A DNA stretch of 64,000 bases. Source: Gracilariopsis chorda (Eukaryota; Rhodophyta; Florideophyceae; Gracilariales; Gracilariaceae). The stretch spans positions 1-64,000 of the forward strand of contig NBIV01000003.1 of the NCBI GenBank assembly GCA_003194525.1, given 5' to 3'. The position numbers and the translations under genes were made by a program. The notes beneath the pieces are model-generated. The model was not told the origin of the DNA and did not search any database. It saw only the letters and a program-made list of their open reading frames with translations. Positions 14,789 through 41,861 of this stretch are shown in pieces; position 1 is the first letter of the stretch, and each line of letters starts with the position of its first letter.

Positions 14789-17278
14789 CAGGTAAGACGA
14801 TACCCAGATGCAGCTCAATGGAAAGCCGCCCATGATGAGGAACTGAAAAATCTGCACATGCGCAACCGTATCAAATGGCTTCCACCACACTCCAAACCAC
14901 CCGCAAAATCTATTATCCCTCTCATGATGCTGTACCGCTACAAACGTGCGACAGAGGGCACCATCTTACAACGCAAAGCCCGATGCAACCACCGCAGGGA
15001 CTTAATGAAACCAGGGCTGCACTCCGATTCGCGACATACGACAACGTACACCGCCGACCGCACTACCCAACGCATGCTTATTGCACTACACGCAGCCATG
15101 GATTTACCACTGCAACAATTCGACATAAAATCTGCATATCTACACGAACAATATCAGCATGGTAAACCGGTATACGTTAGGCAGATGCCCACTTTTGACG
15201 GCAACTATCGACATCCTGGACAATATGGCCAACTCGTAGGTAACATCTACGGATCACCATCAGCAGCGTATTATTTCAACTATGGATTACAAACGTTCCT
15301 CATTTCCCTAGGCTATCGCAAATCTGAGCATGACCCCTGCTTATATATCCTCACTACCAGCACAGACGTCATACTGATAAGCACCACAATTGACGATTTC
15401 CTTATCCTGGCAACCCATCAGGCTCTCATCGACACCCTGTATCAACAACTCCGCACCAAACACAAGCTGAAACGCGTCGAGTCCCCCACACGCTTTCTCA
15501 ACTGGACGATTACTCATACAAAGTGCGGCACTCACGTCTCCCAACCCGACAGCATCGATGCCCTACTGCAGCAAAATGGCATGGAGAACTGCAACTCCAC
15601 CGCCGCACCCTACAACAACATCAAGCATTTCGATCAGCAGGACCAAACCACACCGCTCTCATCTCAACAAGCCACCAAGTACAGACAAACTCTCAGCGAA
15701 ATCCGGTACATAACAGATAATACGTGACCGGACATAACCTATGCCACCAATCGACTGGCACAGCGTATGGCAGCACCCCAACCGCATCACGCACAAGCAC
15801 TAATATGTCTCCTTCGATACCTTAGGGGAACACGAACCCATGGCCTGCTCTTCACCAAGTCTACCAATAACAGCACAACAAAACTTCAGATATATAGCGA
15901 TGCGGATTTCGGCAACGCCAAAAACCGTAATTCCATTTCCGGCAATCTCCACTGTATCAACAACACACCAATATCATGGTCATCCAAAAAGCAAAACGTC
16001 GTTGCTTTATCTACAACTGAAGCAGAATATATATATGCTACAGATGCGACTCGAACACAACATGAATTCTCAAAATTATTCAGGATACACAAGCACCAAT
16101 AGAGCAACCGCCACCGCATTTCATCTACATTCGCTCGGCAGTTCTGATAGCCGAAAATCAAGCGCCTACCAAACAACGCAATTATATAGACATCAGACAC
16201 CATTACCTGCAGCAACACGTAGCAAACGGCACAATTCTGTAGTGCAATACATTCCCGCGTACGGGCGATGGTGAAACTCATATCTGAGGTGTACTCGGTG
16301 CGAGCGATGAAGCGGGATGCATGAATTTTAGCCCCCGTTTACCGGGCTAATTAGCGGTCGGGTTACCCAGGGTGGTTATGGGAACATTCATATTTTGTGG
16401 TACTTGCCTGGCAAGGGTGGTGGACACGTGGCTACAGCCCCGGCCAGGAGGCCCAAAACGGCTACTTATTTTAGTATAGTTTAGGGGTTAATTTTACTTA
16501 GGCTAGTGCACTACCTACTGTACTGCACTGAGCTAGTACTTGAGCGTCGGCCGCACGGCGGCGAGCTCACCAAGAAAAGTAACAAGAGTTCGGCTCTGAC
16601 TCTATTCGCCATGCGAAGTGTCTAACTCCTCGCGGAGGTACACCGCTTGCCCGATAGTTTCACCCGACTCGCACCACCGAGGAGACCGTGCTCGTCGTAC
16701 CCAGTGGGTTGTGACCACTCGTGGTATTCGTTGTTGTCGTGTGACCGCCCGTACAGGCCCTATCTCCGCCCCAGTTTTGGGTATTGATATTACCGACGTG
16801 TGTCGTGAGACCGTGAGACCATCCCTTCCCCTCATATCCCCTAACCGCCGCGCGGTGCGTGTTCGTGTGTGTGTATCGGCACCCCCCTCCGGGGTCTGTT
16901 CCCGCTTTTCGCACGCCCCCGTCGGGTGGTCCCTTTCCCTCTTTTGTTCCACTGTTTGCAGGCTACTTCCGGACCAGCCGTGGTTCCGACCCGTTCTAAC
17001 CCCTAAACCTCCGAGGTACATCCAGGCTCCCGACGGAGTTACACCCGTCATACGGGACACGGAGGGCTCTACCCAGCTGGGCCTACCTCTCCAAGAGAGA
17101 AAGGCTTCGAGCTGCCTTGGGTGCCTTTCCCACACCGGGATTGCACCACAAATTCAACTTAATCGCGTATCCAAGGCAGACATGAAAGCCAATATACTCA
17201 CCAAACCACTTCATTGTGACCGCTTCAGACATCTATGCACGCAACTCCAAGTGACACCCAGTCCCGAACGAAAATGAG
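14789..17278 (+). pseudogene. Copia-1 reverse transcriptase and RNase H, interrupted by an LTR-like insertion
   Basis: RVT_2-type reverse transcriptase: QFDIKSAYLH near 15118, PVYVRQMP, and TIDDFLIL near 15390 where most families have YVDD; both catalytic Asp residues are kept. A TGA at 15725-15727 lies in an otherwise continuous frame. RNase H follows (YSDADFGNA near 15893, LSTTEAEYI near 16008), then a TAG at 16100-16102 and a shift. The C-terminal block IDIRHHYLQQHVANGTI reaches insertion B at 16238. After 17151 the same frame resumes with QLNRVSKADMKANILTKPL, the conserved Copia end, to a TGA at 17276-17278. Confidence 0.85.
16238..17150 (+). mobile_element. LTR-like insertion B, 913 bp
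   Basis: Starts TGTAGTGCAATAC and ends GGGATTGCACCACA, flanked by the perfect 5-bp duplication AATTC (16233-16237 and 17151-17155). It is the most diverged of the four related insertions. It shares the termini, the GCTAGTACTT block near 16530 and the GAGGGCTCTACCCA block near 17065 with copy A. Removing it together with one AATTC rejoins the Copia RNase H tail in frame. Confidence 0.85.
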
Positions 17279-17992: not shown

Positions 17993-19296
17993 TCAAACGC
18001 CCAACATTTCCAGATAAAACTGACCCGCGCAGAAAAAACTCGATAGCACATCTACAACCAAGCCATCAAAGATGTTTTCCTGTCTTTGGTGAACGGTTGC
18101 TGCAAACGCGAGACGAATGGCGAACCGAATTTGTATCAAACGAGTCTCTGCGAAAGAAATCTCAAGTTCCATAAGATGCAGAAGCTTTCGTTCCAGTACC
18201 TGCCTGTTATCGTCAAATCGAGCCTGTGGCATGGTATACTAATGAATGCGCACGACTACGCTTTAAATTGACTGCAGTGGGATGCAGAACGTTCAGAACG
18301 ACCATACCCGGAACACCAATCTTCATGTCCGAGTTATAAGGCGGTTCTCTAGTAGCCTCATACTGATATACAAACTCAGCAACGATATTGATGGCGATCT
18401 TGGACTCTGGGTTCTGTCCACCATCAGGTTTTACAGTCGTCGCTGACGGAAGAGTGAAGCGCTCACCAGGAAACAGATCCACCACTGCCGCATTATTTTC
18501 ATCGACCAACCGGTTCGTTGACGCAATGAGCGTTTTGCTGAGATCCACATTCTCCTTGCCTCGTGTTGTGAGCCACTTCCACACGAATTGGTAAACGGTT
18601 TGGATGCCCGCCTGTAGATCTGAGTGCTAACGGAGCGTTGTTGGATGTTTTGCTCCGTTCATTGGAACGTAACAAAGACGCAAATGCTGGGTCATCAGCT
18701 TCGCGTACTTGTTCGGTGAGGTACAGCACTTGAACCGAGCACAATGTCCATAGATCACTATTCCATGGCAACACGTTCAGAATGTCTATGTACCTTCGTC
18801 TCTCATTTCCACTCGGCTCAGTGTCCATGTATACCTGCGGCACAACTGGAAGCAGATAGGAGTAGTCGCCGAATAGAACGATGGTCAAGCCCGCAAACAG
18901 AAGCCAGTTTTCCATTCCACTGCAGCGAAGATCTTTGAGCAACGCATCCCATAAGTTCAAAAATCTTTCGTGAGAGCATAGACGCCTCATCCAAGACGAG
19001 CAGTTGTATTTCAGGTAGAAATTCTGCGCGTTGAGATCGGGGACCGTACTAGGACAAATTGGCAATAGTGCTACTTGTCCTGTCCTTATCAGCTACACCC
19101 AGCTCGAACAGGCTATGTAAAGTGCGGCCACCTTCGTACAAAGATGCTTCGATGCCTGTTGTCGTAGCCATTTCGGCCAGCATTTCTTTTGGTTCAGCGA
19201 TGTCGCGTAGGAGGCTGAGGACGTATTTCTTCCCATTCCTGCCGATCCCTGCAAAAAGAACACCTTTCTAGGAGTGCTTATTCGCTCCTTCAGCAC
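17993..19296 (-). pseudogene. Helitron 1 Pif1-like helicase domain
   Basis: Read on the minus strand, fragments follow the Pif1 order. A degraded Walker A (FLQGSAGMGRN near 19250, Lys replaced by Arg) comes first, followed by PSTVPDLNAQ.. and the block ending WLLFAGLTIVLFGDYSYLLP near 18850-18910. Then come LYLTEQVREADDPAFASLLR near 18680-18730 and TLIASTNRLVDENNAAVVDL near 18500. The C-terminal domain runs from 18310 down to about 18000. At least three frame changes separate them. In active Helitrons this 5'-3' helicase unwinds DNA during rolling-circle transposition. The Helitron 2 counterpart is better preserved. Confidence 0.75.
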
Positions 19297-21349: not shown

Positions 21350-21964
21350 TTAGCTTTGCTGTGTGACGTTCCTCGCGTCCAGAAACAGGCCGATGTCAAA
21401 CAGTTTGTGCTGATCGCCATACGTGTAGAGAAGAGCGAAAGTGGCTTTCTCTGCCTGTTTAGATGCCGGTTTTAAAAGTCGGTACAGCTCTTGCGCATTG
21501 TTTGTGACATTTTCAGTCGCCCCACCTCCAGCAGCAGTAGCAGCAGCAGACCTCACTACGGCGTGCTTTTCTGTTATGGTTCCTTCTACCAAGCGCGTTA
21601 CTTGAGATTTCACTCGGTAGAGACCAGTCGGATCAACGAAGAGCGTTCTCATCATGGTTGGCCCCCCACCCGGAGCATCTTCAGGTAGAGGGCCAGCACC
21701 TGCATGATGAGCATTGACTGTTGCATTTCCGATTTCTTCGTAACCACGTACGACTACTCCCTCTTCTGCTGCCTGCACGCTGGTATCGTCGGCGGTCTCT
21801 GCATTTTGTTGTTGTTGTTGCGTGCTAAGCATGGTTTGGTACCGCTCGTACACCACGTCGGGCTTGGGCTGGACCACATCGTACAACTTGGGTACGATGT
21901 CTCTTACGTTGATATCTTGAATGAAAGCACGCAGATTGGCACGGGCATAGTGAGATGGATCCAA
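21350..21964 (-). pseudogene. Helitron 1 N-terminal region
   Basis: A 204-residue frame, MDPSHYARANLRAFIQDINV.., that aligns with 38050-38634 of Helitron 2 (LDASHYACANLRALIQEVNV..). It contains a poly-Gln/Ala-rich linker and a Pro/Gly segment (GAGPLPEDAPGGGPTMM). The gene continues upstream to 21997, where the 10.6-kb element interrupts it. The missing N-terminal part is at 32601-33173. Sequence 20936-21349 also aligns with Helitron 2 (37572-37990) but is out of frame. Confidence 0.65.
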
Positions 21965-21997
21965 GGAAGGCGGACCAGTACCCTACAGAAAGCTGTA

Positions 21998-22020
21998 CGT
22001 CGGTGTTCTCGGAATGCTAG
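21998..22020 (+). repeat. Left terminal inverted repeat of the 10.6-kb element
   Basis: 23 bp starting CGTCGGTGTTCTCG and ending ATGCTAG. It pairs with 32578-32600 with three mismatches. Preceded by the TA target duplication at 21996-21997. Confidence 0.85.
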
Positions 22021-22474
22021 ATAGAGGTGCTATATCGCTCGTTTTCTAGGCAAAAGCTCAAAAATACTACGAAAAGGATAGATTCTGCTAGTTTCTGGCG
22101 CTTGCTAAGTAAAAAAAAGAATTTTTTGGAATTCACACTTCCATATCCTACAGAGCCTTGCCTCACCTGCACTGCGCATCGCTAGTTTCAAGTTTGGAGC
22201 AAGTTCATTCTCCACTAAAAGCTAGATACAGATCTCGAAATGGCACTGGCCGCTGCGTGGCAAGCGCCATTTCGAGCACCCAACCAAACCTAACATTTTT
22301 ATTTCCATCTTTTGAATTTCAAACTTCATACTGCCCTAGTTTGACTTCCAACTCATCCTCAGGAACTCATCTGGGCAGCTCTCTCCGTTCTCACACACCC
22401 GACGCACCGCGCATCAGATTCCAATACCACCCATTCCGTCGTCCTAACAGCCTCAACGACACTCCTAAACATCA

Positions 22475-23086
22475 CTAGCCTTCTTCTCCCTCTTCCATCT
22501 TTCCATGCCTCCTCTTCAACCCACTCTTAACCTCCAATCCTTCTTCGTCCTTCTCCTCCAACCTCCTTTTCACGACCCCTCTACCTCCAGGAGTAACCAG
22601 AGACCCACTCCCGACAGCACCTCCCACCCCACCTTCCCCTCCACCTCCACACATCTTGTTCCGCATATCCTCGACTAGATGCACAGCCCTGTCCACCAGT
22701 AAAAGCCGCTTCTCCAACTCCAAAATCCGTCCTCGCAACTCCTCACTCTCGTTCCACAGCCTCCCCAGCTCCTCTCCCACACACGCCACAACCCCATCGA
22801 CGTGCTGCTCTGCCCACTCCCAAGCCTCCCTCACCATCCGGCGCAACTCAGCCACAACACCCATCGGCACTCCTTCCTCCGACGCACTCAGAACCATCCC
22901 TCCCAACTCCACGACAACCTCCTCAATACACTCATCCAAACGCTCCTTAAGCCCTCCCCCAGCGCTCCTAAATAGTTCCTTCACATCGCGATAGAACCCA
23001 TCCATTCGTCTCCCTCCACCTCCCCCTACCCCTCCTCCTTGATCACCCTCGCCCGCACCTCCCTCCCCACCATCTCCTCCCATCAT
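22475..23086 (-). CDS. Hypothetical coiled-coil protein of the 10.6-kb element
   Basis: A 203-residue frame. A Gly-rich N-terminus (about 1-27) precedes a helical, leucine-rich middle (GLKERLDECIEEVVVEL, LRGRILELEKRLLLVDRAV) likely to form coiled coils. A second Gly-rich linker and a basic C-terminal tail (VVKRRLEEKDEEGLEVKSGL) follow, suggesting nuclear or nucleic-acid contact. No family recognised. It overlaps the next upstream frame (23083-23304) by 4 bases in a different phase; the two could be one gene joined by a shift or an unseen intron. The coding strand is strongly purine-rich. Confidence 0.45.
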   Translation of the reverse strand: MMGGDGGEGGAGEGDQGGGVGGGGGRRMDGFYRDVKELFRSAGGGLKERLDECIEEVVVELGGMVLSASEEGVPMGVVAELRRMVREAWEWAEQHVDGVVACVGEELGRLWNESEELRGRILELEKRLLLVDRAVHLVEDMRNKMCGGGGEGGVGGAVGSGSLVTPGGRGVVKRRLEEKDEEGLEVKSGLKRRHGKMEEGEEG

Positions 23087-23304
23087 CGTCCCAACCCCAA
23101 GCTCCCCGAGCCCAACAATCGCCTTTCCTCGCGCCTTTCACCATCAACATCCCCTTCCTCATCCCTCTTCTCCCCCGGAGGCGTCTTTGGCACCTCTTTC
23201 ATCTCCGCTTTATCCAACAACGCCAGGAGCTCCTCATCATTCACGGATCCGCTTGACATGGCTACTACACTCCCCACCCCAACGGTGCTCCCGTTCCCAA
23301 CCAT
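23083..23304 (-). CDS. Hypothetical small acidic/basic ORF, possibly the 5' part of the next gene
   Basis: A 73-residue frame, starting MVGNGSTVGVGSVVAMSSGS. A DEELLALLDKAEMKEVP helix and a charged tail (GERREERR) follow. It ends four bases into the start of the 22475-23086 frame. Its composition matches that downstream frame, so an original single protein of about 275 residues is plausible. No family recognised. Confidence 0.35.
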   Translation of the reverse strand: MVGNGSTVGVGSVVAMSSGSVNDEELLALLDKAEMKEVPKTPPGEKRDEEGDVDGERREERRLLGSGSLGLGR

Positions 23305-23483
23305 CTACCACCAATCGTGCACACTCCAAATACTTATCCATCCCCATTTTTTCAATCCCCCGTTTTCGCGCCATTTCCCACCGCCATACCACGTGTCCCA
23401 CCAATGATCAGAAACAGCCTATCTAGGACAACATTTTACAACTCAGTCACCCTAAGTATGTAGAGGTAAAACTACAATGCTAT

Positions 23484-24290
23484 CTAAAGGAATGGTCGAA
23501 AACAAGACCCAAAAGGCCCCGGTTGCTCTCCCAGACTCGCAACATACCTCTCAAAATTGTACTCTAAGTCCATATCCACTGCCATATCTAAAAGCAACAA
23601 CACAAAAAAGATATTTTTCTCTACTACAGGCCCCAGTCCCCTTACATTGTGCAAAGAAGTCTCCCTCACAAATGTAGATATCAAATTTGTAAATACTACA
23701 GGGAACACCCTCCCAATAAAGAGCCTAATAGCAGCCACACCATCTGTATTCCCCACCACCTTCTCCAAACCCCCTCCTACAGTCCCGCAAACACCCAAAA
23801 TCAGCTCATCAATACCTCTCTGCACATATGGAAGCCCTATCTCATTGTTAATGCTGTCCCCAGTCACAAAGAACATCGTCAGCCGCTCCGCAACATATGA
23901 CAGAGCCCCAAACATGAACCCACCACTGAAAAATGCAACAGTGCCAGTCTTAAGTTCCGTTCTAAGCGACATTGGCGTTCCCAAGAAATGATAGGTAACA
24001 AAAATACAAGCATTCAACGGCACCAGACCTCCCACTGTGAATCCAAGTACACCGCTCTCAAGGCTCTTCACCGGCGCTTTGGTCACCAAAATGTTTGATG
24101 GTGTACCAGCAACAGCAGGAAGGCGCTTGACTTGTCTTGCAGTGGTCCTGGAAGCTGTACTTCTGTGGAAAGTCTTCACATTTGCTCCTGACTGCGGTGG
24201 AACCGACTCATTCCCCTCTCCGCCTTCATTTTTGACACTCATCATCGCAGTGTCCCATGCATATAAACCCGCTGAAACCATCTCCTTCAA
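23484..24290 (-). CDS. Hypothetical multi-pass membrane protein of the 10.6-kb element
   Basis: A 268-residue uninterrupted frame. The first 70 residues are soluble and basic (TASRTTARQVKRLPAV). Then come several hydrophobic segments: GVLGFTVGGLVPLNACIFVT near 80-100, VAFFSGGFMFGALSYV near 118-133, a Gly-rich amphipathic stretch with LILGVCGTVGGGLEKVVG near 163-180, IGRVFPVVFTNLIST near 190-205, and IFFVLLLLDMAVDMDL near 227-243. It is probably inserted in a membrane with about four spans. I recognise no family. It lies in the leftward gene block and does not overlap any other convincing gene. Confidence 0.5.
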   Translation of the reverse strand: MKEMVSAGLYAWDTAMMSVKNEGGEGNESVPPQSGANVKTFHRSTASRTTARQVKRLPAVAGTPSNILVTKAPVKSLESGVLGFTVGGLVPLNACIFVTYHFLGTPMSLRTELKTGTVAFFSGGFMFGALSYVAERLTMFFVTGDSINNEIGLPYVQRGIDELILGVCGTVGGGLEKVVGNTDGVAAIRLFIGRVFPVVFTNLISTFVRETSLHNVRGLGPVVEKNIFFVLLLLDMAVDMDLEYNFERYVASLGEQPGPFGSCFRPFL

Positions 24291-24493
24291 AGTTGCGGGT
24301 GGTTCCTCGGGACCCCAAAAACATAAGGGTACTTCTTATCTTGGTGTGACGAAATATTTGTCTTAAAGATAACCACGAAGTCCTCTCCAGGTCTCTGCGT
24401 AGAGGACAGGGGATGGTTGTGTAGAGAACGACAGACTGTCGTCCCCGGCCCCCCAGCAACCCCCACACCGCGCAATTTCGCCTCTCCTACTCA

Positions 24494-24745
24494 TCACGCA
24501 TCAGTACTCCCAACTCGTACGAACAGATTGACCTCCGCATCGCCCTTAAGCACCTGACCCGTATTGCCCCCAGTTGATGGCTCAGGGTGGCTGGCAGTTC
24601 GGGTGGCATTCCGGCTCTTCGCTTTGCCTCGCGTGGTCGGCATGTCGATAACACGTCTCTTTGGCGAAACAGGCTCCCTCGGAGTCCGTTTCCGTGATGG
24701 CCCGTTTATCTTATTCCCAGTGGAATCCATAGCTGAGTACTTCAA
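24494..24745 (-). CDS. Hypothetical small basic protein
   Basis: An 83-residue frame rich in Lys, Arg, Pro and Thr (KINGPSRKRTPREPVSPKRR, then TTRGKAKSRNATRTASHP), like a disordered nuclear tail. It lies upstream of the membrane-protein gene on the same strand but in another phase, about 200 bp away, so it could be a 5' exon or a separate small gene. Nothing beyond its composition supports it. Confidence 0.3.
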   Translation of the reverse strand: MKYSAMDSTGNKINGPSRKRTPREPVSPKRRVIDMPTTRGKAKSRNATRTASHPEPSTGGNTGQVLKGDAEVNLFVRVGSTDA

Positions 24746-24782
24746 AGGTCGCGCTTGCGTTTTCTTGGCACCCGCTGACGTC

Positions 24783-25113
24783 GAATGCTCCCGTGATCAC
24801 GTATGCTTGGTTCCAAAGAGATGGCCATAAGCACTATATATCGTTTTCAAGACGTTTCATGACATCCATTGTCCTCAACGTAGCATCCCTGCAATTCCCC
24901 TCCCAATTACTTGCATTGCAAAATAATTTGATAATTTTTTGGTCGAAGACCATGGTCCAAGGTGTCGTGGTGCTCCATCGCGAACATGATGGAGCGCCAG
25001 GACGCGAAATGTTAATTAAAGTTCATGCCTGGCGCTCCATCGTGTTCGCGATGGAGCACCATGACACCTCGGACCACGGTCCTCGATCCAAAACGAAGAG
25101 AAACATAATCCGT
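24783..25113. repeat. Hairpin module 1 of the 10.6-kb element
   Basis: 331-bp unit, repeated directly at 25270-25599. It contains arms of about 64 bp (24938-25001 and 25028-25092, a few mismatches; core CTCCATCGCGAACA..GATGGAGCGCCAGG) around a 26-28 base loop centred on TTAATTAA. The loop reads GACGCGAAATG..TTCATGC, the reverse complement of the loop in module 2. It lies between the divergent gene blocks. Confidence 0.85.
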
Positions 25114-25269
25114 GGCAACCAAGTCAAAAGCGACTTGCGCATTCCTCGCAACCGCATTCGTTGCGTCGGTTTGGGCGATTGAAAACTTCTATTGAACCCG
25201 AAGAACAACTTTTTCTTGTTAAACAAAGCACCGCAGTGGTCGTCCCCAACAGTGTTACCCCTTTCTTTT

Positions 25270-25599
25270 GAAGCTCCCGTGATCACGCCTGCTTGGTTCC
25301 AAAGAGATGGACGTAAGCACTATATATCGTTTTCAAGACGTTTCATGACATCCATCTGTCGTCATCATAGCATCCCTGCAATTCCCCTCCCAATTACTTG
25401 CATTGCAAAAGAATTTGATAATCTTTTGGTGGAGTACCATGGTCCGAGGTGTCGCGGTGCTCCATCGCGAACAAGATGCAGCGCAAGGCATGAAGTTTAA
25501 TTAAAATTTCGCGTCCTGGCGCTCCATCGTGTTCGCGATGGAGCACCATGACACCTCGGACCACGGTCCTCGACCAAAAACGAAGAGAAATATAATCCG
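25270..25599. repeat. Hairpin module 2 of the 10.6-kb element (loop inverted)
   Basis: 330-bp direct repeat of module 1, with the same flanks (TTGGTTCCAAAGAGATGG.. and AAACGAAGAGAAA.ATAATCCG). The hairpin arms are 25425-25485 and 25515-25578. The loop reads GCATGAAG..ATTTCGCGTC, inverted relative to module 1 (26 of 28 positions match after inversion). It ends 22 bp before the methyltransferase frame starts. Confidence 0.85.
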
Positions 25600-25620
25600 A
25601 AGGAAACGGGTTCATTCAAG

Positions 25621-28048
25621 ATGCACGGAACCGGAGAAGAGCTTTTTGATGCTTATCTTGCAGTTCGTGATGACTACGCAGCGACGAGGCAAAACTTGGA
25701 TAAGCCGAGAAGTTTGAAGCACACCGACTTTGTGGAGTTCGTGGTACAAAGTCGCAACGTTCATGACTCTGCCAAGAAAATGTTTCTCACTCTCATCGGA
25801 CCGGATTAAATCTCGTATTCGGACTCCAAGCTCCGTAACATGTCTCTTAGAGGCCCTCCACGTCAACTCTATCTTATGACAAGAGTGGTGGTCGTAAAGG
25901 ACCGTGATGAAGACAGGCGTGTAAGGGACTTTTGGAAGGTTTATTGTAAAAGGGAAGGGTTTAAAGGAATCTGTCTTTTGCAAGTCGCGTGTTCTGGGAG
26001 CAACCAAGAAATCTTCCGCTTTCCACACGGATCCTTGCACCGACTTTGAAATGGTCTTTGGGTTGTCTATGGTGCAACAGATTGCCGTGGATAAGAAAGG
26101 AAGTGGTAGGAAGAGGAAAAGGGGCATGGCAGCTAAGAAGTTCTCGAAAGTGAGTTTGTCAGACATGACCCAGAGTCAGAGAGTCGGATATGGTGTGCAG
26201 CTGGTGACCAGGGCTTGGGAATGTTTCGCCCAGTTCCTCGGGTTTCCCAACGTTGAGGTTATGATCTTGCCTTACATTCGACTCGACTATATCAGTGTAG
26301 TCTTCACCGATATCGCACAACGCTCCATGGGCTTCCAACACAAAGATTCTTCCAAACAGTTTTTGGAGGAGAAGAACGTCACCACCGTAAAAGAAAACGT
26401 TACCAAATGGGCATGGAATCTGCCGGACCCAGTGGATACAGCGCTTCGCCTTTGTGCCAAAGAATACCTTGGTGACCTTTCTAATGTGGTGGTACAAGAG
26501 AAACTGTTCGAGATCTCTGCTCCCAGCAAACGGGATGCCCTCAAAAGGTTCATCATCACGAGAACGAGACTTTTCCCTCTGCGGTTTGAGAACTTTAGTG
26601 AAGCTCTTATCACTATGGTTCAAGAGGCCATAAAGCCTCTGAAGCTCATTTCATTGCATGGAAGCAATGTCAAACTACATCAAGCTGTCAAACCAGAGCC
26701 CGCAGAAGACGCTGACATCATTATGGAGCCGGTAGAAATTGGTACGGCTGGTGGTGGGAACGAACGTGCTGAGCGTGTGGAAGGTGGTGATCAGGGTGAG
26801 TTGGAAGAAGTGGAAGAGATAGAGATGGTAGAGGATGCAGAACGTGGTACTGCGGAACGTGGTACTCCACCAAAGGCCACTGGAGGACTGCAGACAACAG
26901 CATTGTCGCAGAACTTATCGTATGATGTCGAAGGCACGGGGATTCGTGCACCACCGTACCCTACGACTTTGGATGATGTGATAGCCTACACGTATTGTGA
27001 GAAGGAGATGTCCCGCGACTTCCTTCTCCACAACTGCAAGTTCGAAAATCTCATCGAGGTTGACGACAACAAGTCTGGCGAAAGCGAGGTATCTATTGAA
27101 GGAAGGGTACAGTTCCTGCTTTCCGATCCGCCATATGGGACTCGTTCTGAGCGTTGTTTGGAGAACAGCGAACACGATATTCTGACCGAGAAGGGCATGA
27201 GCAGGTCAGCGAGAAAATCGTCAAAGCTTCTACGTCCTGGTGGACATATTATACAGTTCTGCTCATAGGATCAGGTACCGTTGTGGCGGGATGTGCTACA
27301 GAAAGTTACCTACATGGATGACTCTGATACGAAGCGTTACTCCTTTGTCGTCGACGAACAGCCCCTCCATTTCGTACGGTCTTTAGGTAATACGACGGGT
27401 AACGTTGGGAGAAGAAGTTGCCAGTTGCACCAGACGACAGAATACGCTGTACATGCTGTTCGTTCTGGAGTTCCTTATGCACAACAGCACCGGATGGTCA
27501 ACTATGAGAACTTCAATTATGTTGCTTCACGATACCCAGCGTATCATGCAATCATGGACCAAGTGCCGCCGATGTCGAATAATGAGATGCTCATGTGGTC
27601 TGTGAAAAACCCGGATGGGAAGTATACGAGGAAGAGGGTGCGACGGGAACAGAAGTGTAGGGCACTGTTGAAAGAGCTGATTTGCAGGTTCAGTCAGCCA
27701 GGAGACCTCGTGGTCGATATGTTTGCCGGAACGTTCTCGACAGCGATGGCGTGCATGGAACTGCCAAAGCATCGGAAGTTTGTGGGGTGTGAACCGGATA
27801 AAGCTTGCTTTGAACACGCCAGGCATGCCGATATTGTTCGCTTCGCTTCCATAATACGGGAAGGACACATGGATATTCAGAAGAGCCAGGAGCTTCGAAA
27901 GATGGCCCATTGTGTTTCCTCTGCATTCCCAATGGGAAGAAGCAGGCACACCGTGTCATGGAGGGCTGTCGACGGATTTCCATCGTACAAAATTATTCCC
28001 CACACCTTGTCGACTTTCTCTCCACTTTGTGGCAAAGTAAAATTCTAA
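25621..28048 (+). pseudogene. Beta-class (N6-adenine-type) DNA methyltransferase, interrupted
   Basis: An N6_N4-methyltransferase-like protein. The N-terminal frame (25621-25809, MHGTGEELFDAYLAVRDDYA..) continues past a TAA at 25807-25809, shifts phase near 25930 and then stays open to a TAG at 27266-27268. The reading continues in phase to 28048. Motif IV, LLSDPPYGTRSER (about 27115-27150), precedes motif I, VVDMFAGTFSTAMAC (about 27711-27755) with VGCEPDKACFEHA. This is the beta-class order, and DPPY is typical of N6-adenine enzymes. An acidic low-complexity insert (about 26750-26870) lies in the middle. Both catalytic motifs remain. It would methylate DNA using S-adenosylmethionine, in the nucleus. 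The frame ends 24 bp before the SET gene. The three lesions argue for a decayed copy; readthrough or unrecognised introns are alternatives. Confidence 0.75.
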
Positions 28049-28071
28049 GGAAGTTGGGAAGGAACAAAGCT

Positions 28072-28719
28072 ATGGATGAATGGCCGAGGGAGCTGCAAGG
28101 AAGAATGAATCTGGAGAACATGAAGTCTCTATTGGCAATGGAGGCTGTGCAATATGGGTTGCGAGTGGGCAAGTCTACTACTCGTCACGAAAAGGCTGGT
28201 GTTGGAGTGTTTGCAACTCGTCGAATTGCTGCAGGCGAGGTAGTGTGCTCTTTCTACGGGACGTTGGTTTATCATTACCTTTCGAATCGGAAAGAAGTGC
28301 ACAAGACCTACGGGGAGGGAGTCATGGGTGTGACGAAGGATCGCTTCCAGAAGTATGCAGTGGAGATAGAAGTCTACGTTCAACAGTTCCAATAACTTCC
28401 GCATCGAAAATAGCTGACGAACTGGCATGGAAAGCAAGCAAACCCCATTTTATGGGTGGTTCCTGCCACTTTTTGTATTGCGGGGTATATCAACGATCCA
28501 AAGTACGTGGAAGGGGATAAACAGTTATATGCCATGGTAGATGGCCTCGTGAAAAAAAGGGAGACTAATGTGCGAATGAAACGGACACCGGGAGTGGGAC
28601 GAACACCAGGGGGAATAACGGACTACAAACTTATTAAGATGGAGGGGACAGCCAACATAGAGCAAGGAGAGGAACTCTTCGCCAGATACGGTGATGTTTA
28701 TGACTGCAAACCCATTTGA
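28072..28719 (+). pseudogene. SET-domain protein, interrupted by two stops
   Basis: From ATG at 28072 the frame gives an N-terminal helix and then the SET core: KAGVGVFATRRIAAGEVVCSF (S-adenosylmethionine-binding GxG-type start, about 28194-28256). TAA at 28393-28395 and TAG at 28411-28413 follow, but the same phase continues with ATFCIAGYINDPKY near 28468-28507, ETNVRM near 28561 in the usual N-H/R-NV position, and ANIEQGEELFARYGDVYD near 28652-28703, the GEEL..YG C-terminal motif. SET enzymes methylate lysines, commonly on histones. Position and strand suggest co-expression with the upstream DNA methyltransferase. The substrate cannot be inferred. Confidence 0.7.
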
Positions 28720-29089
28720 ATGTGGAGGATGGAACGATAGTCATTTATTAGTTTGTTGTTATAAACCTTTCTCCACAGCTTGGCTAAAGGATGTCGTTTA
28801 TTATGTGAACGGATGTCTAGTCCTAACTTAGGACAATATTACTTTTCAGTAGGGATAGAAGATACAAGGCGATATAGATGTGACACAGAAACGTCCATTT
28901 TCGGTACCACCGAGGATTGTATTTTCAAGATTTCACAAAAAGCAAAAGATTTTTGTGCGCATCGGGTGGCGAGATTTTCCCGGAAAACACATGGCGTGCG
29001 CCAACCCAGAGCGTCACCAGCCAATTGCGCAAGAGTTTTGACTCCAAGAATCCCGCCGAAGGGAAAGAAGTGACGCCCAGGAAGGGGTA
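28720..29089. other. No recognised gene
   Basis: About 370 bp after the SET gene. Short frames on both strands have no recognisable features. A tandem GAGCGCACGACGAGT repeat occurs slightly downstream at 29256-29284. Confidence 0.4.
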
Positions 29090-29911
29090 GTGCGGCGAGT
29101 GCGGCTAAGACGCGGCGGAAGGCTATTGAGGAGCGAACCGCGAGTGGAACGAAAGCGAAATAATGTGTTCCCGGGAGCAGATTATCGGGGAGGAGGTCAG
29201 GAGAAGGTGCTTCGAAGAGAAAGGGAAGAGGGGGGGCAAAGAAAGTCGGATCCGAGCGCACGACGAGTGAGCGCACGACGAGTGAGAATTTGAAGGCTGA
29301 TGCACATGCGCATATAGCAGGCGGGAGAGATTCGGTTCTGGGACAGCGATCTATGCCTGGGTCGGGTGGTAGAGTGGAGGGTAAAAAATGGTTGGTTGTT
29401 CGGAGAACGGAAGAGGTAACAGATCAGGGAAGGTTGAAAGGAAATGCCCCGGTCGAAGACCGAAATAAGGATGAAGATATGCCCGGAAGGAAACAAATAG
29501 AAGAGGCAGGTGCGCTGAAGAGAGGTGGGGCCCCAAGTGGAAACCGAGATGTAGGAGAGGTAAATGTCTCTTTGGAACACAGTGATGGGGACGAAGAGGA
29601 TCACATTGTGAAGGAGAGATGGACGAGACAGAGAATAAAGGAAGGAGTGGGACGCCGCTCTGATTCAAAGGAAACGCGAGAAGTGGAAGAAGTGGTAAGA
29701 GCGACGGATGGAATACAGGAAGCACCGAAAAGCGGAGACCGTACAAGCACACTCGTGCGGACGCGAAAGGTGCAAATGGCTGAAAACTTGGAAAGTGATA
29801 GAGGAAGCAGAACGCCGCAGACTCTGGAAGGCATGCGAGAGAGAAAATGAATTGTTCATCGGTCGCCAAGTGAACCTGCTGACGAGCGAAGCCTGTCTGT
29901 CAATGTTTTGA
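29090..29911 (+). pseudogene. Hydrophilic low-complexity protein of the 10.6-kb element, frameshifted
   Basis: Three overlapping plus-strand frames (29090-29293, 29290-29850, 29708-29911) share a highly charged composition (Arg, Glu, Lys, Gly). They join as if frameshifts had broken one gene; a helical end (EEAERRRLWKACERENELF) looks like a coiled coil. The DNA is strongly purine-biased here, which by itself yields open charged frames, so the call is weak. No family recognised. Confidence 0.3.
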
Positions 29912-29976
29912 GAGATGCAGGAAATGACGACATCGGTGTGATTTCTTGATCTTCGTTAGTTGAGAGGGTAAATATA

Positions 29977-30668
29977 TTGAGGGCAGAACTCAGACAGATC
30001 AAAGGGGACCACTGCAGCCTAAAGATGTCACTGAAGCCGACGCAAGAGGAACTGAAGAGGATGAGAGAAGAGATGAGCGAGAAGAATATATTGATAGATA
30101 GCTTACGGGAATGGATGAAGGTGGGAAGAGGGGAGAGAAAGGGATCTGAAGGTGAAAATGGCTTGACAGGGCGTAGGAAGTATGTAGTTGATGTGCAAGA
30201 GAGTTTTTATGGGTTTTTGCGGTTGCGGACAGGTGTTTGAGGCAACGTATGAAGCAGAATTTGAGTGATGTGATTGGGATTCGGAAGCGTGCGCCACCGG
30301 ACAAAATGCTTTCGTTGCTTGGATATGACTTGATTGCCAGACGTGTGAGACCACGAGAAAGGACGGGGCTAGACATTGAGTTGAAGAAGCAGTTAGAGGA
30401 AGCAAAGACGAAGTCCAAGGGGGATGGGGAGGCGAATAGCGGTAGTTTATGTTCTTGGAGGATGAGAACAATCGATGATCTTACCTATTCTGGATTTCAG
30501 GTTGCTGGTAGGCTGAGGGAGTTTAGTGAAGAGGACATGTACTTCAAGAACGGGGCTGCCGTGGAAGTGTTGGAAGAATTCATGGGATATGAGGTGCGGA
30601 CGGAAAGGGAGGGAAAGATGGAGTACGTTGATGGGACAGTGATGCATTTGGCTCCTTTGGATGCGTAG
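29977..30668 (+). pseudogene. Hypothetical protein of the 10.6-kb element, one frameshift
   Basis: A first frame (29977-30240) opens with a coiled-coil segment (LKRMREEMSEKNILIDSL). It hands over near 30220-30240 to a second phase (to 30668) with more globular sequence: KMLSLLGYDLIARRVRPRER, IDDLTYSGFQVAGRLREF, VEVLEEFMGYEV, and a final YVDGTVMHLAPLDA. Reading across one frameshift gives a continuous protein-like sequence. No family recognised. It is the last gene of the rightward block and ends about 150 bp from the transposase-like fragment on the other strand. Confidence 0.4.
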
Positions 30669-30813
30669 ATCGGATTTGTTTTGACAGAAATGGACCCAGA
30701 TATGGGGCGTGGAGGAAGAAGGCAGTTGTTATTTTCTAGTTGTACGGGGAGTATCTCCGGCTTGCGGTGGGGAAAACACTTGGGATGGCCTGGAAAAGGG
30801 TGAGAGAACTACA

Positions 30814-31764
30814 TCATGAAGAATTGGAGAATGAAGGTTGCGATGACGGTGACCCGCGTTTTATAGCTAGGAATGGGAGTAGAGAAGCGAAGGTAGCGCT
30901 GTGGATACCTTCGAAACGGAAGATTGCGGAGATGGCGTGCTGAATGAGGGCCATTCTTGTTTCGCGTGGGATGTTGGAGGACGAATGTGGGATGGAGTAT
31001 CCGTCGCCGGGGGAGGAAGAGGGGGAGAAGAAAGGTGGGAGGTATCCGAGTAGGGTGAGGTTTTGGGAGACACACTTTCGGTGGAATGCGTCGGAGAGGT
31101 TGAGAATGGTGATGTGAAGGGGGTAGGAGGTGATGGAGGAGCCTTTGAGTGAGGTTACAGACGTATCGGAGTATAACTGGACGAGACCGACGAATGATTC
31201 CATACCGGTTGTTTCGGGGGTGTGCCAGACGATATCATTGATGTGGCACTGCGTGATGGCCTGTTTAAAGACAGTAACGACTTTGTTTCCGAAGGCTGCG
31301 GCCATAGAATGGGCAAAGGTGGGGGTTGAAGAAGAGTAGGGTGAAGATTGGGACACGCGTTGTAAGAAGATGTTGTTGAAGTGTGCGAAAGCGAGTTGTT
31401 GCCTCAGGACGTCTATGGCGCCTTTTTGGAAGAGAGTTGCGGAGAAGGAGTTGTGCTCGTCGGAGATTGTGAGAGGGAGAAAATTGGTGGAGTTGATACG
31501 TCCTTTGACGAGGTGTTCTTGGAGTGCGAGGCACTGCTTTGCCGAGTAAATGGATTTCTAGAACGATGACTTGGAGAAATCTGGGTGGTTGAGAAGGGAG
31601 ATGAGTTCGTCGGCTTTGCGTGTGCTGAAGGAGGAAGCGATGGAGGAGATGCAGAGGACGAGTTGCTCGAGATGGGGGTTGTTGAGGAGAGGGGAGGGGG
31701 ATTGGGACGAGGTATGGGGAGGTGAGTTTGAGGAGGAGACTGAACAGAGGGCGTGACTTGCCAT
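30814..31764 (-). pseudogene. KDZ/Plavaka-like transposase, N-terminal fragment
   Basis: The minus-strand phase is open from 31764, crosses one TAG (31558-31560) and runs to 30814. Blocks resemble Plavaka/Kyakuja-Dileera-Zisupton transposases: ADELISLLNHPDF near 31590, SAKQCLALQEHLVKG near 31520, GLVQLYSDTSVTSLKG near 31150-31190 (where that group has a LYSDxTxLS..G block with an acidic residue), and SYPLHITILNLSDAFHRK near 31100, followed by LTLLGYLPPFF. The sequence then ends in a Ser-rich tail where the rest of the catalytic domain should follow, so the protein is truncated. It could be the remnant of the enzyme that moved the 10.6-kb element or an older passenger. The identification rests on motif memory only. 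Confidence 0.45.
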
Positions 31765-32577
31765 GTGGCGTGCGTCTTGTGTTTGGAGGGATAGGGAGGC
31801 CTGTTGGATGTGATAGGGTTAACCTTCGGCGAGGGGGACGTTGTTGGAGGGGCGGTGTGAGGGAGTGGGAGGAGGAATGGTGGAGAGGTTTGGAACGGAT
31901 TTTCGTCGCTTGGTCCTTGGAGGGAACTGGACGGGAGCGTTGGCGGAGGAGGGAGGGCGTTTGTCGGGGGTGAGTCGATGAGGGCACCTGCGTTGTTAAC
32001 TCTGGAGAGAGAACGCGGTGCGGCCATAGAAGGTGCAACGGGGATGGAAACAGTGTATCATGGCGGGGGAAGGAGGACGGAGAACGGGATGCTTGGAAAC
32101 AGAGAAGGGAGCGTGGTGGCGGAGTGGGATATTGGGGAGCGTAATATTATGGCGCACGTAGATGAGGTGGTGCACGTGATGCAGAGCGTCTTTTCGTAGT
32201 GCGTAGGGTAGAGCATGCGATGCAGGGAGCAGGTCGGGCAACAGGTAAAAGAAAGCCAAAGCTATTTGGTTATGTAAACGCTATGTATCTATTCTATCTA
32301 TTCTATTTATTCTATTTTGCTATTTGAAGGGGCACTCGCTCAGGACCAGTAAGATTTGGATTCCACGTGCACCTGAGAGGGTAGGTATTAGTGGAGTCTG
32401 GCGCTAGATTTACCTCCAAAGAAACTGGGAAATGTCTAGTATACTGCTAGTCTTTTGTACCAAGCAAACTAGCTCTGTGCTATGTATGGAATTATTTTGA
32501 GAAATTTGATTCATTCAAAATTGGGTTTGAAGAGTCGTTATTCGTTCATTTTAATTCTTTGCCTTTTGAATGCCAAA
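31765..32577. other. Right subterminal region of the 10.6-kb element
   Basis: GA-rich to about 32260; Pro/Ser-rich frames on the minus strand here (for example from 32027) may be an N-terminal extension of the transposase-like frame in another phase. An AT-rich (TCTATTCTATT)n stretch lies at about 32280-32320. Beyond it come AT-rich sequence and repeated GCTAG motifs (about 32405-32470), mirrored at the left end (near 22090). Confidence 0.4.
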
Positions 32578-32600
32578 CTAGCATAACGAGAACACCGGCG
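32578..32600 (-). repeat. Right terminal inverted repeat of the 10.6-kb element
   Basis: Complement of the left end with three mismatches over 23 bp (CGAGAACACCGGCG at the outer edge). Followed by TA at 32601-32602 and then Helitron sequence. Confidence 0.85.
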
Positions 32601-33180
32601 TAGCGCGTGTTTTTCGGGTTCTGCGTGGGGAGAGCGAGAGCTGCGTTGCCCTCAAGTTGGAGAAAGAACGGACCGCCTCCCGTCACATACGAAATGTCCA
32701 TGAATGCTTGCCTCGTCGCAAAGAGTGTATTCAAGTTGACAAAATAGCTGTGAAAGGCTCTCAGGCTATACCGATTGCGAATAAACTCGTTGCAATGCCT
32801 TCTGCATACCGTGACGCTCCGTGCCGATATTCTTCTATTTCCACAGCACACTTCGGTGGTCCTTTCTCAAGCAAAACGCAACCGCAGTACTTGCAGCTAT
32901 GAAATTTCAATGTCGAGTCCGGGTAGGGGCACAAGGAGAGCAGAACTGAATACCTACTTTCGCAAGTAAAGCCGCCGCAATCGCAACGCGCCGTTTCTGA
33001 ACGTCAGAAAAACAGCATAAAGAAATGTGTAACGGCCCTTCAAGTCCGGTAAGAGCGGCGTTGAAATAACTTTTTATCCTCCATGCGCCAGCGGTTTGGT
33101 CTATTGTATAGGTAGCTTCAGCAAGCTGTTCCAAGAGCAGGGAGTCGAACTGCGTCCGCAAGTACGTCATCAACGACCCA
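32601..33180 (-). mobile_element. Helitron 1, N-terminal part (right of the 10.6-kb element)
   Basis: Continues Helitron 1. On the minus strand the phases give CPYPDSTLKFHSCKYCGCVLL (about 32870-32940), a Cys-rich zinc-finger-like segment matching CTYPDWKLRIHSSKDCGCVL of Helitron 2. Then comes NRYSLRAFHSYFVNLNTLFA near 32750, matching MYSLRAFQSYFFNFNTLFA. A stop and frameshifts show decay. The N-terminal limit near 33180 is approximate; an 88-residue frame (32907-33173) partly overlaps in another phase. Confidence 0.7.
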
Positions 33181-35480: not shown

Positions 35481-35752
35481 AGAGGAGTGATAAACAGCGG
35501 TAAGAATAAGAAAGGGTGGAGAAAGCAAAAGCAGAAAAGCAAGTAGTTTTATTCAATGAATCAATATCGCAAGGAAACTTATTACAGTTGTGGAGGGATG
35601 CAGGACTGAATGGCTTCAGGCAGCACTGGGTTGGCAATGGCCACAGGCATGGGATCAATTGTCTGCGCATTTGCGGATTTAAGCTACGGGTGATGCAGGG
35701 GCAGCACATGGTCGTTCCTTCAAACGGGCAACAATGCGACATACAACTGACC

Positions 35753-35805
35753 GGCGCAGAAGACCTTGGATCGCACATCATGTGCGATCCAAGGTCTTCT
35801 GCGCC
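35753..35805. repeat. Perfect 53-bp palindrome in the Helitron 2 helicase end
   Basis: Two perfect 26-bp arms (35753-35778 and 35780-35805, outer edge GGCGCAGAAGACC) around a single C at 35779. The corresponding place in Helitron 1 (about 18027-18055) has only one arm-like sequence (CGCGCAGAAAAAACTCGATAGCAC), so the second arm arose as an inverted duplication in this copy. Confidence 0.9.
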
Positions 35806-37163
35806 AGGAAGATCCCCAACGAAGCCATCTAAGGTCTTACCCTGTCCTTTGAGAAAGGCAGCTGCAAACTAGAGACGAATGGGGAACTGCCTTCGAATCT
35901 TGCGAGTGTCTGCAAGAGGAAACTCGATGTCCATACGATGCAGGAGCTGTGGTTCCAGCACCTGTCCGGTTTCGTAGAATTGAGCCACTTGCATTCTAAA
36001 CTGATCGACACGCAAAACTAGCTTTCCGTTGACCAAAACGAAATGCCGCCCGTTCCGAATGACCAACATGGGCACACCAATCTTCAAGTCCAAGTTATGA
36101 GGTGGTACTCAAGTAGGCGCATACTGGTATGAAAACTCGGGAACGATAGTACTGGCGATGTTCGACTCTGGGTTCCGTCGACGATCAGGTTGCACAGTCG
36201 TCACTGAAGGAAGAGTGAAGCACTCACCAGGAAACAGATCGAGCGCTGCCGCATTATGTTCGTCGACCAACTGGTTTGTGGACGCAATGAGCATTTCGCA
36301 GAGATCCACATCCTCCTTGCATCGTGTTGTGAGCCACTTCCACAGGAACTGGTAAGTGGTTTGCATGCCATCGGTAGATCTGAGTGGTAGTGGAGCGTTG
36401 TTGGATACTGTGTTGCGTGCAATGGAACGTAAGAGCGACGCAAATGCCTCATCATCGGCTTGGCGTACTTGTTCGGTGAGGTACAGCACTTGAACCAAGC
36501 ACACTGTCCACATATCACTCTTCCACGGTAACTCGTTGAGAATATTTGTGTACACTCGTCTCACATTTCTACTTGGCTCAGCCTCCATGTAGACCTGCGG
36601 CACCACTGGAAGCAGATGGGAGTAGTCGCTGGAAAGAACGACGGTAAAGCCCCCAAACGTAGGCGGGTTTTCCATTCCACTGCAGCGAAGATCTTTGGGC
36701 AACGCATTCATGAGTTGAAAGAGCTTTCGTGAGAGCATGGACGCCTCATCCAAGACGAGAAGTTGTATTTCGCGTAGCAGTTCTGCACGTTGAGATCGGG
36801 GAACGTGCTTGGACAAAGTGATTCTAGTGCTGCTTATACTGTCCTTGTCAGGTACACCCAGTCCAAGCAGGCTAGGTAACGTGCGGCCACCTTCGTTCAA
36901 CGAAGCTGCAATGCCTGTTGTAGCAGTCATTTCGACGAGCATTCCTTCCGACTAGCGATATTGCGAAGGAGGTTGGGCACGTATGTCTTTCCAGATCCTG
37001 GGAATCCTTGCACAAATAACACCTTTCCAGTAGTGCTTGTTCGCTTCTGCAGCGCCTGCCGTCTTTGTAATGTAGCAACGGCTGTGTCAATGACTTGTTT
37101 TTGGCGAGGTTTTAAGGTGGCGTACCTTGACTGCAACGTTGACGCATAGCGTACCACCAGCAC
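35806..37163 (-). pseudogene. Helitron 2 Pif1-like helicase domain
   Basis: The Pif1 core is readable in order: KPRQKQVIDTAVATL near 37090, Walker A VLFVQGFPGSGKTY near 36990-37030, then after a phase change TATTGIAASLNEGGRT near 36900. Walker B IQLLVLDEASMLSRKLF is near 36730-36775, GGFTVVLSSDYSHLLPVVP near 36600-36655, LYLTEQVRQADDEAFASLL near 36430-36485, and LIASTNQLVDEHNAAALDLF near 36240-36300. The C-terminal domain follows in another phase (LKIGVPMLVIRNGRHFVLVN near 36030-36090), with a TAG at 35869-35871 before FAAAFLKGQGKTLDG, the conserved last motif. The ATPase motifs are intact, but two phase changes and a stop prevent one protein. Role: 5'-3' unwinding during rolling-circle transposition. 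Confidence 0.8.
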
Positions 37164-37232
37164 CTCCTCTATGTATGTTGCTACATAGAGCCTCGTAGTT
37201 GGCGACGGCCGTGTGAAAAACAGACGTCGTAG

Positions 37233-37990
37233 CTAGGAGGGCGTGCTGAAGATCTGCACTGCTTCTTGGAAGGCAATATCAAACTCAGATCCGTCCGAAA
37301 GCGCTCTGTTCGCAATCGCAGTTTCACGATACGTTCCATACTGCTGTAAGTTGAAAGTCCTTGCGTCTTCATAACAGCTCGATACGTGATTCATGAGCAG
37401 CAAGCGCAGAGCAAAGAGCTGAATGCCCGACGATGAAACTCCTTTGATCCTTGCGACGCACTGCTCGTCTTCCGCGCGCTCTACCACGTACATGCGCGGA
37501 TCGCAGTCCTCTGTGGGCACCTGAGTGCTGTCGTCGTCGTATTGGTTAAGCAAGCGGGCATAGCATAGCAAGGCACTGGATGCCCTCTCGCCAGATGTTC
37601 ATGGTTATCGTAATAAAAAGAGAGAGAAGTTCTCTCCACTCTACGATAGCCTGTACATCCATGCGCTTGTTCTTCCAGTACTCTGCTGAGTTGACCGAGT
37701 CATCGGGCAGAAATATGGGTCCCATTTGTGCGAACTGTGATGGTGACACATAACCTGTTTGCTGTTGTGATTGCAGGATATGTTGCTCTTGTACAATAAA
37801 TGCCTGTCGTTCTCTCTCCAGGAAACGTAATCCCAGGTACTCAATGCTTTTGTTCGTGGGGAGGATCCACATCTGCATCAACGGTCCACTCTTTAGGCGG
37901 ATGTTGTCTGAGTACAGACGTCGCTTCACGTTCTCAGCCCAGCTGAGCTTTTGCAGCTTCCACTCGTTGACGCTGAGACCTGAGCTTTGC
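37233..37990 (-). pseudogene. Helitron 2 middle region with Rep-domain deletion junction
   Basis: Two frames meet here. 37233-37571 (MYVVERAEDEQCVARIKGVS..) matches 19653-20009 of Helitron 1. 37546-37929 (LKSGPLMQMWILPTNKSIEY.. SLFITITMNIWREG) matches 20940-21350 and carries the start of the Helitron-like N domain. In Helitron 1 these segments are separated by about 900 bp coding for the Rep HUH region; here they are joined directly. The protein could not nick DNA. Confidence 0.7.
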
Positions 37991-38049
37991 TGTGTGGACT
38001 TCTTTTCATACAGAAACAGGCTGATCTCAAATGATTCGTGCTGATCGCC

Positions 38050-39715: not shown

Positions 39716-40045
39716 CCTGGCACCTCTAAAATTGTCTCTGTCCCCTCCCGAGTTAGATCAGATCCCACCAGAGTTCTGACGTCGCCCTCCTCTCGTGATT
39801 TTAGTTTACCAAAAAAGAAAAAAACAATTCACTTTTTTTAAACCGGTAAGAAATTTGCCAGAGTTCCAGAATAATTTCCAGGCACTCTCGACAGACTCCT
39901 GTTGGATTATGACGGGTGCCCAGCCGGTTTTCAAGCCGTTTGATGTTGAACCCGCGTCCAGTTGTAAGGATTGGTCTGCCTTTACTCACACACCAAAGTG
40001 TGATTTCCGGCTCCAAGAGATACGACACGGCGGCCGCCCCGGACC

Positions 40046-41850: not shown

Positions 41851-41861
41851 ACTCAGAATCC

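Follow-up and report, generated by a model that had tools for sequence, protein, structure and literature searches.

The window analysed here, a stretch of 64,000 nucleotides from the red alga Gracilariopsis chorda (assembly GCA_003194525.1, contig NBIV01000003.1, positions 1 to 64,000), contains a mobile element of 10,603 bp (21998-32600) that has 23-bp terminal inverted repeats (TIRs), represents a single insertion into Helitron DNA, and is flanked by a 2-bp duplication on both sides. Among its genes are remnants of a Plavaka transposase and of a fused methyltransferase-SET (MTase-SET) protein. Both ends were read directly. On the left, TA|CGTCGGTGTTCTCGGAATGCTAG (21996-22020) comprises one copy of the target-site duplication (TA, 21996-21997) and the plus-strand left TIR (21998-22020), an A-type left end according to its pattern (...GGAATGCTAGATAGAGG); on the right, the minus-strand TIR CGCCGGTGTTCTCGTTATGCTAG (32578-32600), an A-type right end (...TTATGCTAGTTTGGC), is followed by the second TA (32601-32602). 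A search of the genome assembly (91.3 Mb, 1081 contigs) with the 23-bp end pattern, allowing at most one mismatch, gave 204 matches, against none for a reversed-pattern control (91 Mb).

The insertion is shown by a second Helitron copy in the window (Helitron 2), which keeps the empty target site (GCTGTAGCGC, 38623-38632, located by flank alignment). When the joined flanks were aligned with this part of the window (35501-42500), the gap at the junction was exactly TA (AAAGCTGTATAGCGC versus AAAGCTG--TAGCGC), and the insert size calculated from the spacing of shared repeats (16,631 - 6,024 = 10,607) agreed with the element length. An earlier note on this DNA had described the TA-flanked 23-bp inverted ends and the empty site, both of which were confirmed, and had proposed that a large element of cut-and-paste type entered a Helitron in a single transposition, which is supported. 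It had also taken the two flanks to be consecutive parts of one Helitron gene. Their Helitron identity stands, since the second copy carries Pfam matches to Helitron_like_N (37549-38049, 3.6e-7) and PIF1 (36112-36942, 6.4e-20). An insertion inside the coding part is likely, but domains in the flanks do not prove it: the PIF1 match of the flank copy itself is weak and below cut-off (18502-19065, 0.0014), and the short frames adjoining the insertion (21353-21964 and 32549-32866) gave no match in Pfam.

The gene content can be read against an intact relative, copy C53 (85235-97085; 11,851 bp, AT duplication), whose four undamaged genes, measured stop to stop, encode a coiled-coil protein (276 aa, minus strand), the MTase-SET protein (1065 aa, plus), ORF3 (821 aa, plus) and a transposase (1160 aa, minus). 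Relatives of this kind look autonomous. In the window copy, tblastn with the C53 protein located a broken coiled-coil gene (22502-23325, minus strand) with 224 of 276 residues matched; the protein has no Pfam match, and its coiled-coil nature was judged by eye. Next to it lies the remnant of a gene for a hydrophobic protein (23487-24140, minus strand; 218 of 417 residues matched by tblastn), likewise without a Pfam match and, judging by eye from its residues, probably a multi-pass membrane protein. A repeat scan then revealed two tandem units of about 487 bp (24787-25599), each with an inverted repeat of 65-66 nt that encloses a loop of 26 nt; these units, whose counterpart in C53 is at positions 1662-1969, sit between the divergent coiled-coil and methyltransferase genes, near the GC-skew switch, and are a possible two-way promoter or replication origin. 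The MTase-SET gene (25606-28704, plus strand) is broken by stops and frame changes, with 1019 of 1065 residues matched in three tblastn pieces and an N6_N4_Mtase match at 27269-28045 (3.9e-12). ORF3 (28987-30925, plus strand; tblastn), which encodes a basic, coiled-coil protein with an uncharacterised conserved C-terminal part, is also broken and has an internal deletion of about 330 bp relative to copy C273. Finally, the transposase remnant (30919-32145, minus strand) covers residues 47-457 of 1160 and was recognised by tblastn and by a PF18759 match (9.9e-6) whose 25.4 bits lie just below the curated cut-off of 26.3.

The transposase itself is clearest in sister copies. C53 has an uninterrupted 1160-aa frame (PF18759, 2.7e-21, 76.6 bits versus the cut-off of 26.3), the intact transposase for which the earlier note had suggested a search, and C29 has a nearly whole gene with one stop (65.8 bits). 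In paired copies the TIRs bound the transposase gene. The genome has 114 Plavaka matches, many of them in stop-free frames 900-1160 aa long; 14 control genomes gave none in the same search. A PF18759 match over cut-off, a 2-bp duplication (2 or 2-3 bp in the superfamily) and TIRs, features of the Plavaka superfamily within CMCT, are all present in this family; its termini (CGTCG..CGACG) differ from those of PlavakaA (TGT..ACA) and PlavakaB (CATCA..TGATG). Relative to C29, the window copy and the three other A copies read (C273, C460 and C151) have in common a loss of about 2.36 kb of the transposase. The deleted lineage was therefore multiplied, presumably moved by transposase made elsewhere. 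We consider it highly probable (about 0.85) that the window copy is non-autonomous, having arisen by internal deletion from a large DNA transposon of Plavaka type in the red alga Gracilariopsis.

The genome contains two subfamilies of this transposon. For the A type, to which the window copy belongs, 50 right ends were found when at most two mismatches were allowed; 32 could be matched to a left end in opposed orientation, which gives copies 4.7-20.7 kb long. In all nine paired copies with lengths of 15.6-16.8 kb, a Plavaka transposase match lies beside the right end; at 10.6 kb, the window copy falls into a shorter length class. Into this pairing went all 50 right ends, 70 of the 109 left-end matches (9 were unlisted and 30 of B type were deliberately set aside) and, together with a dummy row for C51, 37 of the 114 transposase loci; a blank transposase entry in it carries no meaning by itself. 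The B type has 49 right ends (45 exact) and 40 left ends (36 exact), which form 27 pairs with lengths of 5.6-17.5 kb; of the 49 MTase-SET loci, 22 were taken into this pairing, where a blank entry does not show the gene to be missing. The exactness of the B ends, together with 99.5-99.9% identity between two B copies over stretches of 3.1 and 1.6 kb, points to a recent spread of this subfamily. The genome search with the ends that the earlier note had called for thus found that the two ends travel together (32 of 50 A and 27 of 49 B right ends paired).

The target duplication is 2 bp long and has no fixed sequence. All 23 B pairs tested, out of the 27 found (C1007, C109, C322 and C242 were left out), are flanked by a perfect duplication of 2 bp, and in no case is it 3 bp; 11 kinds of dinucleotide occur: TA six times, AT and TG three times each, AC, CT and TT twice each, and five others once each. 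Matching 2-bp duplications were also present in nine of the 12 distinct A pairs tested (32 found); five of these nine came from a TA-anchored search, and the proportion free of that bias is 4/7. Copies C402 (23269-31837) and C460 (17563-26141) have identical flanking bases on both sides, apparently as parts of a duplicated stretch of host DNA, and were counted as one A pair. The TA that the earlier note had put forward as the target site is only one instance of a sequence-relaxed duplication. Tc1/mariner-like elements, with their invariable TA duplication, were rejected as candidates, TA being present in just 6 of the 23 B pairs.

The cargo varies among copies. A B copy, C7 (438883-445984), is without MTase-SET and ORF3 and carries the 417-aa hydrophobic protein that persists as a remnant in the window copy, so that the gene set is modular. 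The left regions of C151 (1946-4277 of the stretch read, minus strand) and C273 have leftward open frames other than those of the window copy, including one of 708 aa in C273; the frames of C151 gave no significant Pfam match. A variable cargo slot in the left region is suggested. The element also displays an extreme mirror-image GC skew (22000-32600), plus-strand values being strongly negative across the left arm and strongly positive across the right one. In C53, the top-strand skew at fourfold sites is -0.67, +0.28, +0.53 and +0.79 for the four genes, regardless of coding strand. A skew of this sign would be consistent with replication that runs outwards from a point inside the element.

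Two predicted writer domains are joined in the 1065-aa protein of C53, with Pfam matches to N6_N4_Mtase (3.6e-18; PF01555, 66.8 bits versus a cut-off of 26.7) and SET (8.9e-5), both over cut-off. Separate methyltransferase and SET genes were rejected, as the two occupy one frame in copies C460 and C53. The earlier note's view of a cargo resembling chromatin modifiers is upheld, and corrected in that methyltransferase and SET are not separate genes. The order of the motifs, with DPPY ahead of the AdoMet motif F-G-T, is that of beta-type (permuted) DNA amino-methyltransferases; in the window copy the gene is broken. The nearest relatives of known structure are adenine methyltransferases for the methyltransferase part (DpnA, 3.9e-15; CcrM, MboIIA, RsrI), and KMT2C (7e-6), KMT2D, KMT5A and EZH2 for the SET part.

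Intact 1065-aa frames exist at five loci in the genome, and annotated relatives include the G. chorda hypothetical proteins BWQ96_09986 (87% identity over 55% of the query) and BWQ96_08558 (85% identity over 40%). Relatives are also found in metagenomes. A protein search with one relative, P0004, scored 7999 candidates and gave 40 proteins, P0004 included; dozens of metagenomic proteins have the same architecture, at 26-43% identity to P0004. A structure model of P0004 has a mean pLDDT of 85 and a pTM of 0.68. Among 37 aligned members (34 of the 40 search matches and three Gracilariopsis sequences, namely P0001, P0002 and the C460 frame, with P0006 and P0041-P0046 omitted), N6_N4_Mtase was matched in 36 and SET in 32 (E up to 0.1), and the ParB family was not among the Pfam matches. 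That the fusion came from a virus or a bacterium was considered and rejected: the loci found match the methyltransferase region and its edges only, with a best segment 20-47% identical. They are methyltransferase-only loci, 15 and 24 from scans of viral collections and 41 from a collection of prokaryotic genome contigs, in scans that relied on a few conserved peptide patterns, so that absence there is no proof. No methyltransferase-SET fusion inside a transposon appeared in the titles and abstract starts of the literature matches listed (e.g. the best 10 of 830), in searches that were not all aimed at it.

The fused gene is linked to the transposon by its position. At 26 of 49 MTase-SET loci, a Plavaka transposase lies on the opposite strand, in convergent orientation, 1.4-4.9 kb downstream. 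The three control arrangements (a transposase downstream on the same strand, or upstream on either strand) were found at 0 of 49 loci each. The 49 loci, all of which were compared with all 114 Plavaka matches, are a lower bound (there were 352 first-look candidates), and the window copy is not among them.

Selection between the subfamilies was measured as omega (dN/dS), with the intact B copy set against each of five A copies. For MTase-SET, omega is 0.16-0.19 in the N-terminal part, the methyltransferase and SET, versus 1.1-2.4 in shifted frames. ORF3 gives 0.14-0.26, the transposase 0.23 in the nearly complete copy and 0.27-0.62 in remnant pieces, and the coiled-coil gene 0.33-0.49, except for a 22-codon piece (1.34); shifted-frame controls stand out less well in the coiled-coil gene (0.44-1.13) and in some of the transposase pieces (0.65 and higher). 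At the level of sequence, these values show that MTase-SET evolved under long-term constraint between the subfamilies. Purifying selection among the recent A copies was considered too and is weak or absent, only the A-B comparison being clear. At synonymous sites, the distance between A and B is about 0.8-1.4 in MTase-SET and ORF3 but smaller in the transposase (0.43-0.62) and the coiled-coil gene (0.13-0.44). This is a hint of separate histories for the module and the transposase, though strand bias is another possible reason for the lower distances of the transposase and the coiled-coil gene.

Elsewhere in the window, two frames with DDE_Tnp_4 transposase matches (44077-45138, 2.5e-21; 53450-54244, 4.2e-21) are, we assume from the domain, Harbinger-like, and two RVT_2 reverse transcriptase frames (14489-15724 and 58168-59244) are presumably of Copia type. 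An inverted pair of 825 nt (12042-12866 and 62764-63588), 95% alike and about 50 kb apart, has related pieces at 60337-60745. An open frame of 1204 aa (47968-51579, minus strand) gave no significant Pfam match.

Several observations weigh against a Plavaka transposon equipped with a functional, selected writer protein. No transposase match was in place at 23 of the 49 MTase-SET loci. This is partly because of deletion derivatives, between whose paired ends several of these loci lie (e.g. C286, C460, C151 and C274). At least one B copy, that of C7, moved without MTase-SET, which makes the gene dispensable in cis. No matching duplication flanks three of the 12 distinct A pairs (C134, C286 and C7:341272), which may be rearranged copies or wrongly paired ends. 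The transposase model has a pLDDT of 45.6, too poor to show a DDE fold, and searching solved structures by sequence with the transposase and ORF3 returned chance-level matches only. Among the five A copies, mean omega is 1.16 in the N-terminal part, 0.69 (0.35-1.02) in the methyltransferase and 0.73 in the linker plus SET; given such near-neutral values, these copies are mostly decaying. Active SET lysine methyltransferases have an AdoMet-binding Asn-His motif and a catalytic Tyr. Here the Tyr is kept in all eight aligned rows, where the residue following Asn is not His, and the motif reads Asn-Asp; with this substitution and a marginal score in C53 (23.3 bits, barely over the cut-off of 22.4), SET activity is uncertain.

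Is this, then, a new kind of transposon? The earlier note had suggested an undescribed family outside the standard TIR superfamilies, or a self-synthesising element. The unusual cargo and ends of neither PlavakaA nor PlavakaB type speak for this, but in intact copies a Plavaka transposase (PF18759) is correctly placed and oriented, and one sister copy retains its complete frame of 1160 aa, the duplications are of 2 bp as in Plavaka, and no polymerase, integrase or capsid gene was matched in the open reading frames scanned. That idea is largely refuted, and we regard it as extremely improbable. Polinton/Maverick elements have a protein-primed DNA polymerase B, a retroviral-type integrase, capsid genes and a 5-6-bp duplication; they were rejected, because Pfam matched none of these genes in the frames scanned and the duplication is 2 bp. 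The fused protein could instead be a passive passenger with no role in the life of the transposon, as the movement of C7 without it and the slight constraint on recent A copies would allow. An omega of 0.16-0.19 over all three of its parts makes this very unlikely, and the five intact frames argue against it as well, as do the dozens of metagenomic proteins in which the fused architecture recurs at 26-43% identity to P0004.

If the Plavaka assignment is correct, the transposase would bind the 23-bp ends and cut and paste the element with a 2-bp staggered cut, as its family and the duplication suggest, and would supply deleted copies such as that of the window in trans. MTase-SET and ORF3 are read one way and the coiled-coil gene the other, leaving a shared central region with the inverted repeats. 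The fused protein, made by the element, would methylate the element's DNA (most likely at adenine) and nearby histones, and so would hold its chromatin permissive against host silencing. We give such an anti-silencing role roughly even odds. It is favoured because the transposon-borne TET enzymes of fungi, those of Plavaka among them, have been interpreted in this way (PMC12730594), and because N6-methyladenine (6mA) accompanies active chromatin in protists (PMC12695648). In a stricter form, which we hold as a rather unlikely conjecture, a single polypeptide would be a two-layer chromatin writer, placing adenine methylation on element DNA and an activating lysine methyl mark on histones, so that the two marks typical of active chromatin in protists would arise together and keep the element expressed. 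Alternatively, in a reading we hold to be less likely than not, the methyl marks would not counter silencing but tune transposition (through hemimethylated ends as substrate or repressive self-limitation) or mark self versus rival elements. In keeping with this, the SET relatives include activating (KMT2) as well as other or repressive enzymes (KMT5A, EZH2), an amino-methyltransferase captured by bdelloids supports transposon silencing (PMC8885841), and at least one copy without MTase-SET also moved. That the best SET scores belong to KMT2C/D (7e-6) and that 6mA occurs in protists with active chromatin (PMC12695648) are weak arguments against it. The element itself belongs to a known kind, Plavaka, and its intact relatives carry an unusual passenger, a fused DNA amino-methyltransferase-SET protein that might help them evade silencing.

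Petroll et al. are said to have described giant Plavaka transposons in the red alga Bostrychia in 2025, in Curr Biol. These would likewise be large Plavaka elements in florideophyte red algae, and part of the present finding may already be in print there. Fungal Plavaka A and B have 2-bp duplications, and some carry a TET/JBP dioxygenase (Kojima 2025, PMC12730594). They are similar to the present family in transposase family, TIRs, 2-bp duplications and the capture of a DNA-modification enzyme, and differ in that the present family has a red-algal host, CGTCG..CGACG ends and a methyltransferase-SET fusion in place of TET/JBP. The only fungal protein among the matches listed for the present transposase is 27% identical over 23% (best 8000 candidates scored). 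The 'giant repeats' of Amoebidium, up to 50 kb long with tandem intron-poor genes such as tyrosine recombinases, are also large gene-carrying repeats flanked by a Plavaka transposase; unlike in the present family, no MTase-SET is mentioned in the accessible text (PMC11244446).

Similar enzymes are known from other elements. In the brown alga Ectocarpus, Sola1-1 encodes a ParB-methyltransferase protein, an amino-methyltransferase of similar length that lies opposite the transposase and is thought to modify the element's own DNA (PMC12477816). It has a Sola transposase and a ParB-like domain, with no SET mentioned in the excerpt of that source, whereas the present alignment has SET in 32 of 37 members and no ParB match. 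HarbingerS and MuDR elements of Phytophthora resemble the present family in carrying a SET histone methyltransferase gene inside a DNA transposon; they belong to other superfamilies, and the excerpted account mentions no fusion to a DNA methyltransferase (PMC12730594). DNA methyltransferases are encoded by DIRS elements (Dam-like, adenine) and by retrotransposons (cytosine), which are retroelements for which the available portion of the source mentions no SET fusion (PMC5890265). Finally, N4CMT of bdelloids is, like the present protein, a bacterial-type PF01555 methyltransferase joined to a chromatin domain in a eukaryote, in that case a chromodomain; it belongs to the host, recognises histone marks instead of placing them, and contributes to silencing (PMC8885841).

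Transposon-borne enzymes that modify DNA or histones are rare windows on the conflict between mobile DNA and silencing. A single protein with both kinds of writer, maintained by selection since two subfamilies (of which one is young) diverged, would offer a direct test of whether an element installs permissive chromatin on itself. Were the two-layer writer real, the metagenomic fused proteins (many of P0003-P0045) would constitute a wide, unnamed class of mobile-element writers. For Plavaka, the present family extends the superfamily in a seaweed genus amenable to native sequencing for 6mA, with genes, a duplication rule and a terminal type of its own.

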